A stretch of DNA of 45,385 nt from contig CABXGK010000003.1 of NCBI GenBank assembly GCA_902511735.1, forward strand, positions 1 through 45,385, given 5' to 3'. Both the position numbers and the translations under genes were made by a program. The notes under the pieces are model-generated. The model was given only the letters and a program-made list of their open reading frames with translations, searched no databases and was not told the DNA's origin. This DNA comes from an uncultured marine group I thaumarchaeote. GTDB lineage: Archaea; Thermoproteota; Nitrososphaeria; Nitrososphaerales; Nitrosopumilaceae. Below are positions 41,529 through 45,210 of the stretch, piece by piece. How positions within the stretch are numbered: position 1 is the first letter of the stretch; every line of letters begins with the position of its first letter.

Positions 41529-43571
41529 TTGTATAAACTCGGATTTCTTTTGATATTAGTGATGGGAATGTCTGTGATTCCTTTTTCATTTTCTGAAGAG
41601 ATTCCAGATTGGGTGAAATATACGGCACAGTGGTGGGCAGACAGAAAAATCTCTCAAAGTGATTTTACAAATGCATTAGAGTCATTAATCAAAGATGGAA
41701 TAATTAACATTCCACCAACAGAAATGGCACCCCCAGGACCTGACAAAACTATTCCAGATTGGGTGAGAAATACTGCAGGATGGTGGGCAGATGACTACAT
41801 TCCAGATTCAGATTTCATCAATGCAGTGCAATATTTGATAAGTGTAGGATTGATAGAAGTCAAAGTATCTACTCCAGAAATTGTTGAAGAAATTGTTGAA
41901 ATTGAAAAAAGTGTTCCGTTAATGTTGTTAGTAGAAGGATATGATACAGTTACACCAGAAAAGAAATTTGTTTTAGATGTCCTAGTGTTTAATGCTGAAA
42001 AATATCCTAAAGCTTCTCCAAAATTCGACAGAAATGCATCATATACTGTGGATGGTGTGAATGTAGAAATAGAATTACATAATGAAGAAGGACAAATTCA
42101 CACTTTTTCTGGAACCACTAAAGATGGATTCTTACGATATGAGATATTAGCACGTGAAACTAGTCAGGATGGTACACTTTGGATGATAAATAATCTGTAC
42201 ACTGTAGATGTTTCTGTGTCATTGGATGGAGAAAGTACAGGAAAAACTCATCAATTTTTTGGAGGTGCCAATTATGATAAAGGTTCAGCAGTAGTAGATA
42301 CATCATGGTCAAAAACAGTTCTCAAAACTGTAGAGATTAATGACTCTACTGCAAATGGACCTGAACTAATTAACAGTGATACCTTTGGTACATCTGTTGC
42401 AAACATTGGGGATTTGAATGGTGATGGAGTAGATGACTTGGCTGTGGGAGCTGCTGATGATAATGGAAGTAATAATCGTGGTGGAGTGCACATTTTGTTT
42501 ATGAACACTGATGGCTCTGTGGATTCGACTGAAGAGATTAACTCATCAACTACAAATGGACCTGATTTGGCTAGTAATGATTTCTTTGGTAGATCTATTG
42601 CAAACATTGGTGACCTTGACAATAATGGTTTTGATGATTTAGCAGTAGGTGCAACTGGTGATAATGAAGGAGGTAATAATCGTGGTGCAGTGCACATTTT
42701 GTTTATGGATGAAGACCCTGGAAATGGTCTTGCAAAAGCAGCTGAAGAGATTAACTCATCAACTACAAATGGACCTGATTTAGACGATGATGATGAATTT
42801 GGTAGATCTATTGCAAACATTGGGGATTTTAATGGTGATGGAGTAGATGACATTGCAGTTGGTGCAGATATGAATGGAGCTAACAATAAGGGTGCCATAC
42901 ACATTTTGTTTATGGATGAAGACCCTGGAAATGGTCTTCCAAAAGCAGCTGTAGAGATTAATGATGATACTGCAAATGGACCTGCAATAAATAACCAGGA
43001 TAAATTTGGAATATCTATTGCAAACATTGGGGATTTGAATGGTGATGGAGTAAATGACATTGCAGTTGGTGCACATGGTGCGGATACAGGTGAGTCAGGA
43101 GGCAATAACGCAGGTGAAGTGCACATTATGTTCATGAACACTGATGGCTCTGTGGATTCGACTGAAGAGATTAATTACTCCACTGAAAATGGACCTGAAT
43201 TAGCCGGTGGTGATAACTTTGGAACATCTATTGTAAACATTGGAGATTTGGATGGTGATGGAGTAAATGACATTGCAGTTGGTGCAGAAAAAGATGAAAT
43301 GGATGAAAATGGTGATTCTAGTGGAGGCGATGATCGTGGTGCAGTACACATTTTCCATATGAACATGAATGGTTCTATAGACTCCACTGTAGAAATTAAT
43401 GATTCAACTGAAAATGGACCTGTTTTAGATGATGCTGATTGGTTTGGTAGAGCAGTTGTAAACCTTGGAGATTGGGATGGTAATGGAGTAAATGATTTGG
43501 CGGTAGGGGCACATGGTGATGATGATTCAGGTAATGCTCGCGGTGCAGTACACATACTATTTTTGGAATAA
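41529..43571 (+). CDS. Secreted protein: two PDWV..WWAD modules plus six FG-GAP/integrin-type beta-propeller repeats
   Basis: TTG start, signal peptide; IPDWVKYTAQWWADRKI and IPDWVRNTAGWWADDYI; six repeats FGxSIANIGDLNGDGVDDIAVGA....RGAVHILFM. Confidence 0.9.
   Translation: MYKLGFLLILVMGMSVIPFSFSEEIPDWVKYTAQWWADRKISQSDFTNALESLIKDGIINIPPTEMAPPGPDKTIPDWVRNTAGWWADDYIPDSDFINAVQYLISVGLIEVKVSTPEIVEEIVEIEKSVPLMLLVEGYDTVTPEKKFVLDVLVFNAEKYPKASPKFDRNASYTVDGVNVEIELHNEEGQIHTFSGTTKDGFLRYEILARETSQDGTLWMINNLYTVDVSVSLDGESTGKTHQFFGGANYDKGSAVVDTSWSKTVLKTVEINDSTANGPELINSDTFGTSVANIGDLNGDGVDDLAVGAADDNGSNNRGGVHILFMNTDGSVDSTEEINSSTTNGPDLASNDFFGRSIANIGDLDNNGFDDLAVGATGDNEGGNNRGAVHILFMDEDPGNGLAKAAEEINSSTTNGPDLDDDDEFGRSIANIGDFNGDGVDDIAVGADMNGANNKGAIHILFMDEDPGNGLPKAAVEINDDTANGPAINNQDKFGISIANIGDLNGDGVNDIAVGAHGADTGESGGNNAGEVHIMFMNTDGSVDSTEEINYSTENGPELAGGDNFGTSIVNIGDLDGDGVNDIAVGAEKDEMDENGDSSGGDDRGAVHIFHMNMNGSIDSTVEINDSTENGPVLDDADWFGRAVVNLGDWDGNGVNDLAVGAHGDDDSGNARGAVHILFLE
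42333..43571. repeat. Six degenerate tandem repeats of about 200 bp encoding FG-GAP blades
   Basis: Recurring 'gagattaa...aatggacctga...ggtagatctattgcaaacattggggatttgaatggtgatggagta' blocks. Confidence 0.93.
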
Positions 43572-43607: not shown

Positions 43608-44210
43608 ATGGAATTTGCTAAAGAATTTTCAGCATTTCTTTATGAAAAAAAGATTATCAGATTTGGAGATTTCACTTTGGCAAGCGGAAAAAAGAGTCCA
43701 TATTATATTGATTTGAGATTAGTTCCAAGTTATCCAATTTACTATAGAAAAATGATCAAGGGATTACAAAATTTGATTGCAGAAGATATAGGGTTTGAAA
43801 ACTTTCACTCTCTAGTTTCAGTTCCGACAGGTGGATTGGTAGTTGCAGCATCACTTGCAACTGAAATTCTAAAACCGCTCATCTATGTAAGAAAACAAGC
43901 AAAAGAACATGGAACAGGAAAAGCAGTTGAAGGTGTCACATGTCAAGACATGAAACTGTTAATGATTGAAGACGTTGTTACAAGTGGTGGCTCTGTCATT
44001 AATGCAATAAAATCAATCAAAGAAGAAAAAATGACTGTAACTGATGCATATGCAATAGTCGATAGAATGGAAGGAGCAACTGAAGCATTACTAGCAGAAG
44101 GGGTAAAACTTCACAGTCTTTTAACAGTTAAAGAGATTGCAGAAAACTTGTTTGAGCAAAAATTAATCTCACAAGATGTACTAAAGCAGGTTCAAGATAG
44201 AGTAAATTGA
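43608..44210 (+). CDS. pyrE: Orotate phosphoribosyltransferase
   Basis: FTLASGKKSPYYIDLR, MLIEDVVTSGGSVINAI PRPP motif (LMIEDVVTSGGS). Confidence 0.95.
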   Translation: MEFAKEFSAFLYEKKIIRFGDFTLASGKKSPYYIDLRLVPSYPIYYRKMIKGLQNLIAEDIGFENFHSLVSVPTGGLVVAASLATEILKPLIYVRKQAKEHGTGKAVEGVTCQDMKLLMIEDVVTSGGSVINAIKSIKEEKMTVTDAYAIVDRMEGATEALLAEGVKLHSLLTVKEIAENLFEQKLISQDVLKQVQDRVN

Positions 44211-44273: not shown

Positions 44274-44309
44274 AATACGAGTAGAATTTAGCTGGAATTA
44301 AAATTTTAG

Positions 44310-44383
44310 TGGGCCCGATGGGCTTCGATCCCATGGCTCCTCGGTTATGAGCCGAGTACTCTACTAGGCTGAGTTACGGGCCC
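44310..44383 (-). tRNA. tRNA with CAT anticodon (Ile2 or elongator Met)
   Basis: RC GGGCCCG TA ACTC AGCCTAGTA GAGT A CTCGG CTCATAA CCGAG GAGCC ATGGG ATCGAAG CCCAT CGGGCCC A; all stems pair. Confidence 0.9.
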
Positions 44384-44421: not shown

Positions 44422-45057
44422 TTAGCAGTAAGCTTCGTAGCAACTGTCTAACAAGAGATTTTGTGCGTCAACAGATTTTTGTGCTGTTGATAACATCAAG
44501 GAGTCATCCAATTTTGTATCGTTAATGACTTTTTCCCATGATGCTGCATGTCGAATGTCAGCAGTCATGTGCTCTTCAAAGTATTCTGTTGCATCTTTTG
44601 TATCAATGCCATAGAATTCTTTCAATCCTTCTAGTTTGGTTTGACTTACTTGAGGAATTTCTTTTTCAAATGCATACATTGCACATGCTCCATTATCATA
44701 AGAATTCATAAGTGAATCCAAGTTAGATACTGCTTTGTTGGTTTTCTCAAGACCTTGATAGCCTTGTAGTTCTGATTCAGAAATTCCCATAGAACCTGCA
44801 AATTTCTCCCATAGAGGAATGTGCTCGGCTTCTTCTTTCATGTTCTGAATTAGCTCATCTTTCATTTCAGGAGTTGCATCATTTACCAATGGTTCCATGA
44901 ATTGTGGGACCTGTTTGACTAATTGATAATATTCTTTAGAATAACCCTTTAGTGATTCTAGTTCCAGTTTTCCATCAGACCACATCTCATAAAATGGATG
45001 TTTGAGTAAACTTTTCTCTTCAATAATTTGATCGATTTGTTTGATTAGAGAACCCAT
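44422..45057 (-). CDS. TenA/PqqC-superfamily haem-oxygenase-fold protein, CADD-like; candidate pABA synthase
   Basis: LLKHPFYEMWSDGKLELESLKGYSKEYYQ, NMKEEAEHIPLWEKFA, AMYAFEKEIPQVSQTKLEGLKEFYG, EHMTADIRHAASWE (HxxxDxxH). Confidence 0.82.
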   Translation of the reverse strand: MGSLIKQIDQIIEEKSLLKHPFYEMWSDGKLELESLKGYSKEYYQLVKQVPQFMEPLVNDATPEMKDELIQNMKEEAEHIPLWEKFAGSMGISESELQGYQGLEKTNKAVSNLDSLMNSYDNGACAMYAFEKEIPQVSQTKLEGLKEFYGIDTKDATEYFEEHMTADIRHAASWEKVINDTKLDDSLMLSTAQKSVDAQNLLLDSCYEAYC

Positions 45058-45135: not shown

Positions 45136-45210
45136 GCTCCTGTAGTGTAGTCCGGTCAAGCATTTAGGCCTTTCACGCCTGAGACTCGGGTTCGAATCCC
45201 GACGGGAGCA
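45136..45210 (+). tRNA. tRNA-Glu(TTC)
   Basis: Acceptor GCTCCTG/CGGGAGC, anticodon stem TAGGC/GCCTG with loop CTTTCAC, T-arm CGGG TTCGAAT CCCG. Confidence 0.94.

Follow-up and report, generated by a model that had tools for sequence, protein, structure and literature searches.

The source of p-aminobenzoate (pABA) in folate-using archaea is largely unexplained. The stretch of DNA analysed here (the window) comprises 45,385 nucleotides from an uncultured marine group I thaumarchaeote, and an open reading frame near its end raises the question of whether ammonia-oxidising archaea, which rank with the most abundant cells of sea and soil, make pABA with an enzyme that is consumed in doing so. A reading from sequence alone had placed there a CADD-like protein of the haem-oxygenase fold, a candidate O2-dependent, self-sacrificing pABA synthase. 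We conclude that the gene very likely encodes an O2-dependent enzyme that sacrifices its own Tyr and Lys to make pABA for folate, although this activity is inferred from bacterial homologues. The conclusion is based on family, fold, residues, distribution, the lack of a recognisable chorismate route in relatives and the presence of FolP, all of which the analysis shows, and it provides a concrete, testable answer for ammonia-oxidising archaea. In the literature that we searched, no paper linked archaea with a CADD/PabS enzyme, though papers beyond our search could; a review (PMC13108848) and the paper on NePabS (PMC11965152) mention bacteria only.

Family and fold of the protein

The open reading frame lies on the minus strand, with its ATG at 45057 and its stop at 44422, and translates into 211 residues; read on the plus strand, the same interval contains 16 stops. 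The proposed frame thus held once the strand was corrected to minus. The four motifs quoted for it were all found in the translation: HPFY (residues 20-23), EEAEHIPLW (75-83), FEKEIPQVSQTKLEGL (130-145) and HMTADIRH (163-170). The frame and motifs are kept in more than 100 independent archaeal loci, and the Pfam, NCBIfam and PDB phmmer E-values show that the motif matches are real and not chance. The features of the locus are listed in Table 1.

Table 1. Positions in the window of the gene, its functional codons and its conserved neighbours.
Feature	Position	Strand	Basis or remark
pyrE-like phosphoribosyltransferase, conserved neighbour	43608..44210	+	PF00156; syntenic in G108 and G451
tRNA-Met, downstream flank of the gene	44309..44383	-	ARAGORN; same tRNA at the G451 locus
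CADD/PabS-like haem-oxygenase-fold dimetal protein, predicted self-sacrificing pABA synthase, 211 aa	44422..45057	-	TIGR04305 9e-50, best PDB sequence matches, AlphaFold2 model
H163-x3-D167-x2-H170 metal ligands and Tyr159 (= NePabS F177, CADD Y170)	44548..44583	-	Alignment
Codon of Lys141 (= NePabS K159, CADD K152), amine donor	44635..44637	-	Alignment; role per PMC11965152
Glu131 (metal ligand) and Phe130 (= NePabS F148, CADD Y141)	44665..44670	-	Metal-selectivity role per PMC11965152
First metal ligands Glu76 and His79 (E-x2-H), plus Trp83 (= NePabS W99)	44809..44832	-	Ligand spacing
Stretch with Tyr39 and Tyr43 (= NePabS Y41, essential, and Y45, proposed radical path)	44929..44943	-	Roles per PMC11965152
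Codon of Tyr23 (= NePabS Y25, CADD Y27), sacrificed Tyr	44989..44991	-	Alignment; role per PMC11965152
tRNA-Glu, upstream flank of the gene	45136..45210	+	ARAGORN; same tRNA at the G451 locus

The best NCBIfam profile for the protein is TIGR04305, the CADD family (E = 9e-50, 169 bits), and the best Pfam profile is Haem_oxygenas_2 (E = 7e-19). When the protein was compared with PDB sequences by phmmer, the best matches were CT610/CADD of C. trachomatis (8e-31) and the 4-aminobenzoate synthase 9pj4 (2e-29). We treat the latter as NePabS of N. europaea, since the seven residues described for that enzyme all occur in it at their published numbers. The curated cut-off of TIGR04305 is 200 bits, which is missed not only by the window protein but throughout the 250 sampled genomes of the order, none of which has a copy above it. 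Because every archaeal copy tested scores below the family cut-off, archaeal CADD is overlooked by current annotation. The cut-off is a naming threshold, not a biochemical one, and is one reason for classing the protein as an archaeal variant.

An AlphaFold2 model built on 41 archaeal sequences had a mean pLDDT of 97 and a pTM of 0.92. In a fold search against the PDB the four best matches of the model were CADD structures (TM 0.92-0.93, rmsd about 1.5 Å, E about 1e-12), including 1rcw (TM 0.93, rmsd 1.5 Å). UndA came after them (E about 5e-7), followed by PqqC and TenA (about 1e-6 to 1e-5).

The alternative left by the sequence-only reading was a TenA thiaminase or PqqC-like enzyme, with a role in thiamine salvage or PQQ synthesis. 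Such an enzyme would have the same fold, both families are among the fold matches, and Pfam TENA_THI-4 is also matched by the protein. However, the NCBIfam search matched no TenA family at E <= 1, and the PqqC profile gave 27.5 bits against its cut-off of 240, far from the 169 bits of CADD; BesC gave 24 bits. The fold E-values for TenA and PqqC are about six orders of magnitude or more worse than those for CADD. What is more, PqqC has no metal cofactor (PMC11363339), yet all six metal ligands are invariant here, and the Cys near the active site that could have pointed to TenA (C125) is not conserved, being Ala in many relatives. We rejected the TenA/PqqC identity on profile, fold and residues, and regard it as all but excluded; the CADD-like identity held in the profile, the PDB sequence matches and the fold.

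Predicted catalytic residues and metal ligands

In NePabS, Tyr25 is cut out of the protein, Lys159 gives the amine and Tyr41 is essential, while Tyr45 and Trp99 are also important, probably in radical transfer, and F148 and F177 set the choice between Fe/Fe and Mn/Fe (PMC11965152). The counterparts of Y25, K159, Y41, Y45, W99, F148 and F177 in the window protein are Y23, K141, Y39, Y43, W83, F130 and Y159, and the set of three His and three carboxylate dimetal ligands is complete (E76, H79, E131, H163, D167 and H170). All 128 archaeal relatives match the window protein at the five pABA residues (Y23, K141, Y39, Y43 and W83) and at every one of the six ligands, in a group whose members are about 27-38% identical to NePabS. 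The HMMER alignment also bore out the correspondence proposed in the sequence-only reading, namely that the Tyr of HPFY corresponds to CADD Y27 and the Lys of QTKLEGL to K152; the absence of either residue would have refuted the proposal, but both are present and invariant. The claimed ligand pattern held too, with all six ligands in place.

Natural negative controls are provided by six paralogues, found in the same order or in bacteria. They are 22-28% identical to NePabS and keep all six ligands, but only 0-1 of the five pABA residues, so that the match of the archaeal sequences exceeds mere conservation of the fold. The HDO paralogues L072, L073 and L077, from family f63 of the order, retain all six ligands but are without the sacrificed Tyr and Lys, and Met/Leu, Trp and Arg stand where the pABA synthases have their tyrosines; they form an uncharacterised dimetal oxidase group.

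On a second rival reading, the protein belongs to the CADD lineage of dimetal oxidases but has a small molecule as its substrate instead of itself, its Tyr and Lys being ordinary active-site residues. In its favour, most characterised HDOs act on small molecules (PMC13108848), and the archaeal sequences share only about 30% identity with the enzymes of proven activity, score below the curated cut-off and differ in the spacing of the first ligands. Against it, each of the 128 sequences keeps all five pABA residues, compared with 0-1 in paralogues with the same ligands, and the folate pathway has a hole at PabB/PabC despite the presence of FolP (see below). We consider this reading very unlikely. 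Against a pABA synthase stand the lack of activity data for the archaeal members, their scores below the cut-off and the different first-ligand spacing.

Two features had not been seen in the sequence-only reading: the ligand spacing, which is unlike that of bacteria, and the F130/Y159 pair, which bears on metal choice. The first two ligands are arranged as E-x2-H, a spacing of 3, in 128 of 128 archaeal sequences, versus 7 or 9 in seven bacterial sequences. As the spacing of the first ligand pair is known to vary among HDOs (PMC11363339), we interpret E-x2-H as a lineage trait and not a defect. Position 159 is Tyr in all 128 archaeal sequences, while position 130 is Phe in 98, Leu in 16, Tyr in 13 and Ile in one. 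The F130/Y159 pair of the window protein equals that of the NePabS F177Y variant, which switched from Fe/Fe to Mn/Fe (PMC11965152), and from this we predict, by inference, that the archaeal enzyme uses Mn/Fe or mixed metals.

The reaction of the proposed pABA synthase, its radical path and its single turnover are inferred from the characterised bacterial homologues. The dimetal site would activate O2, and the oxidising hole would travel by way of Tyr159, Trp83 and Tyr43/39 to Tyr23. The side chain of Tyr23 would then be cut from the backbone and oxidised to become the benzoate ring; the carboxylate oxygens would come from O2 and the amine from Lys141, and the protein would be left spent. FolP, encoded elsewhere in the genome, would condense the pABA with a pterin on the way to folate.

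Distribution, descent and the folate pathway

The closest copies in named genomes are those of Candidatus Nitrosopelagicus (87-88%) and of a marine group I thaumarchaeote single cell (90%). The gene was matched in 164 of the 250 sampled genomes of the order, including 80 of 82 in the window's family, f1; in a phylum-wide sample it was absent outside the order, apart from three weak matches without the pABA residues. Archaeal AmoA was found in 32 of 61 genomes tested for it, and 30 of these 32 carry the gene. A few AmoA-less relatives (families f56, f58 and f59) have intact copies too, so the gene is not strictly tied to ammonia oxidation. It is an order-wide core gene of ammonia-oxidising archaea that co-occurs with FolP, which the sequence-only reading had not seen. 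One further copy, on a contig binned as a Woeseiaceae bacterium (L141, JAPKEL010000080.1), encodes a CADD about 60% identical to that of the window, inside the archaeal range, and the contig looks like an archaeal contaminant of that assembly.

In the tree the archaeal copies form one clade (support 98/97). In G108, a closed 1.23 Mb genome of the same genus as the window, Nitrosopelagicus, and in G297, the immediate neighbours of the gene are a polyprenyl synthetase gene and NADH-dehydrogenase-like (nuoLMN) genes; G197 likewise has genes of these kinds close by. The clade and the shared neighbours point to one old acquisition followed by vertical descent. The tree did not resolve a bacterial donor, the bacterial and outgroup branches being long and weakly supported, and a search of IMG/VR and PLSDB found no viral or plasmid relative. 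We describe the proteins as an archaeal variant clade of CADD/PabS synthases, monophyletic, conserved across ammonia-oxidising archaea and set apart from the bacterial enzymes by the E-x2-H spacing and the invariant Tyr159; if the inferred activity is correct, the enzyme is probably their only source of pABA.

Two genomes of family f1, G446 and G451, are without the gene. G451 is a reduced, amoA-bearing genome of 0.8 Mb, and its corresponding locus (L180 5864-6321, G451:C1) reads pyrE, tRNA-Met, 146 bp, tRNA-Glu, polyprenyl synthetase and nuo genes, the CADD gene being cleanly missing between the two tRNA genes with no remnant. FolP is kept in both genomes, and from their gene content we predict that both are pABA auxotrophs that need an outside supply. 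Elsewhere in the window, positions 41529-43571 encode a large, secreted-looking protein with FG-GAP/integrin-like repeats; the matching place in G108 holds a different-looking protein of 740 aa that begins with a signal-like segment, and the difference suggests a surface protein that varies or has been swapped.

The window's own genome encodes dihydropteroate synthase (FolP; 206.8 bits, curated cut-off 162.6) next to an MptE-like hydroxymethylpterin diphosphokinase. The CADD gene is unlinked to folate genes. The FolP and MptE-like genes (L058 2920-4569, G000:C17) are adjacent and divergent in Nitrosopelagicus, so that two enzymes of pterin cofactor synthesis, one bacterial-type and one archaeal-type, are paired there. 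FolP was present in 22 of 22 gene-positive genomes tested. RFAP synthase, which uses pABA for methanopterin-type carriers, was found in none of these 22, compared with 17 of the other 25 relatives, in full or weakly. We therefore rejected use of the pABA by way of methanopterin.

The pathway argument also requires that no chorismate route be hidden. We looked for a second chorismate-binding gene (PF00425) in 119 genomes. Among the 87 gene-positive genomes of amoA-bearing families, 86 have exactly one such gene and one has none, and no second PF00425 gene was found in these members. In the window's genome and in G108 the gene is trpE, located in a trp operon and with archaeal TrpE as its best model. 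Both class-IV aminotransferases (PF01063) of G108 score as IlvE over the cut-off, with the PabC models far below theirs, and PabC was rejected. With a sole chorismate-binding gene, TrpE where examined, and aminotransferases of the IlvE type, PabB and PabC both appear to be missing; the search for pabABC that could have refuted the proposal found none. The window's genome is only 57% complete, and the absences rest on relatives, mainly the closed G108. Two amoA-less genomes of genus g147 (G317:C32 and G336:C49) have both an intact-looking CADD and a second chorismate-binding gene, possibly for PabB or an isochorismate-type enzyme.

Physiology provides further support. Nitrososphaera viennensis could be carried through several transfers in the absence of vitamins, and it is sensitive to trimethoprim only when vitamins are omitted (PMC11897584); Thaumarchaeota carry the formyl-folate enzyme PurN (PMC3261824). 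It follows that at least one ammonia-oxidising archaeon makes folate, and so pABA, de novo. The family of N. viennensis shows no chorismate route, and we infer that the species carries the CADD gene from its presence in the tested genomes of family f3, which we take to be Nitrososphaeraceae.

A third rival reading holds that pABA comes from another unidentified archaeal route, or from a promiscuous TrpE/TrpG together with IlvE, and that the protein is a moonlighting or regulatory relative. Methanogens make pABA by a non-chorismate route whose genes are unidentified, so that a missing PabB does not alone require CADD, and TrpE/TrpG are present here. In addition, G446, G451 and several CADD-less relatives have FolP with neither CADD nor a second chorismate-binding gene. 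Some pABA uptake or other source must therefore exist in the phylum, and we dropped FolP presence alone as proof of de novo synthesis. However, this reading gives no reason why 80 of 82 family genomes, and genomes across the order, keep a single copy of a gene whose suicide residues are intact, or why a clean in-situ deletion is seen only in the reduced 0.8 Mb genome. We judge it very improbable. The pathway argument for the self-sacrificing synthase is supportive, not conclusive. The proposal that this archaeon lacks the chorismate route and makes pABA from a protein side chain and O2 is thus supported, with the enzymatic activity still inferred.

A bolder joint reading, towards which the balance tips only slightly, is that ammonia-oxidising archaea as a whole make all their pABA with an enzyme that needs O2 and is consumed as it reacts; that their ancestor exchanged the methanopterin-type branch of pABA use (RFAP synthase) for folate made through FolP and fed by this enzyme; and that the enzyme is by nature a Phe/Tyr hybrid between the Fe/Fe and Mn/Fe types, with a predicted preference for Mn/Fe. 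With a pABA synthase of this kind, a self-consuming enzyme that the literature searched describes only in bacteria would be extended to a second domain of life. It would tie folate synthesis to oxygen in an aerobic archaeal lineage, and its cost in protein would be a real one for cells whose genomes are tiny and whose iron is scarce. The more than 100 natural variants, in which the ligand spacing is different and one residue beside the metals is always Tyr, could be used to study the choice between Fe/Fe and Mn/Fe.

Comparison with known systems

UndA, BesC, PqqC and TenA share the fold of the window protein, and UndA and BesC also share the dimetal ligand set, but all four are weaker matches than CADD in sequence and fold. 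CADD itself (CT610, Chlamydia trachomatis; PDB 1rcw and 8va9) is the best fold match (TM 0.93) and has the sacrificed Tyr, the donor Lys, the ligands and a Tyr at the Y170 position in common with the window protein. The two proteins are 30% identical and differ in that the window protein, like 98 of its 128 archaeal relatives, has Phe at the position of CADD Y141, and has a shorter ligand loop and no folate operon; there is no reason to suspect that it has a role in host cell death. NePabS (NE1434, Nitrosomonas europaea; PMC11965152; PDB 9pj4) is 32% identical to the window protein. The latter comes from an archaeal host and is missing a stretch of roughly ten residues that precedes the first ligand helix in NePabS. 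NePabS has its first two ligands as E-x6-H and the window protein as E-x2-H, and F177 of NePabS is replaced by Tyr159. In other respects the two are alike, each being a single small domain of the HDO fold with Phe at the F148 position and with Y25, Y41, Y45, W99, K159 and the six ligands conserved.
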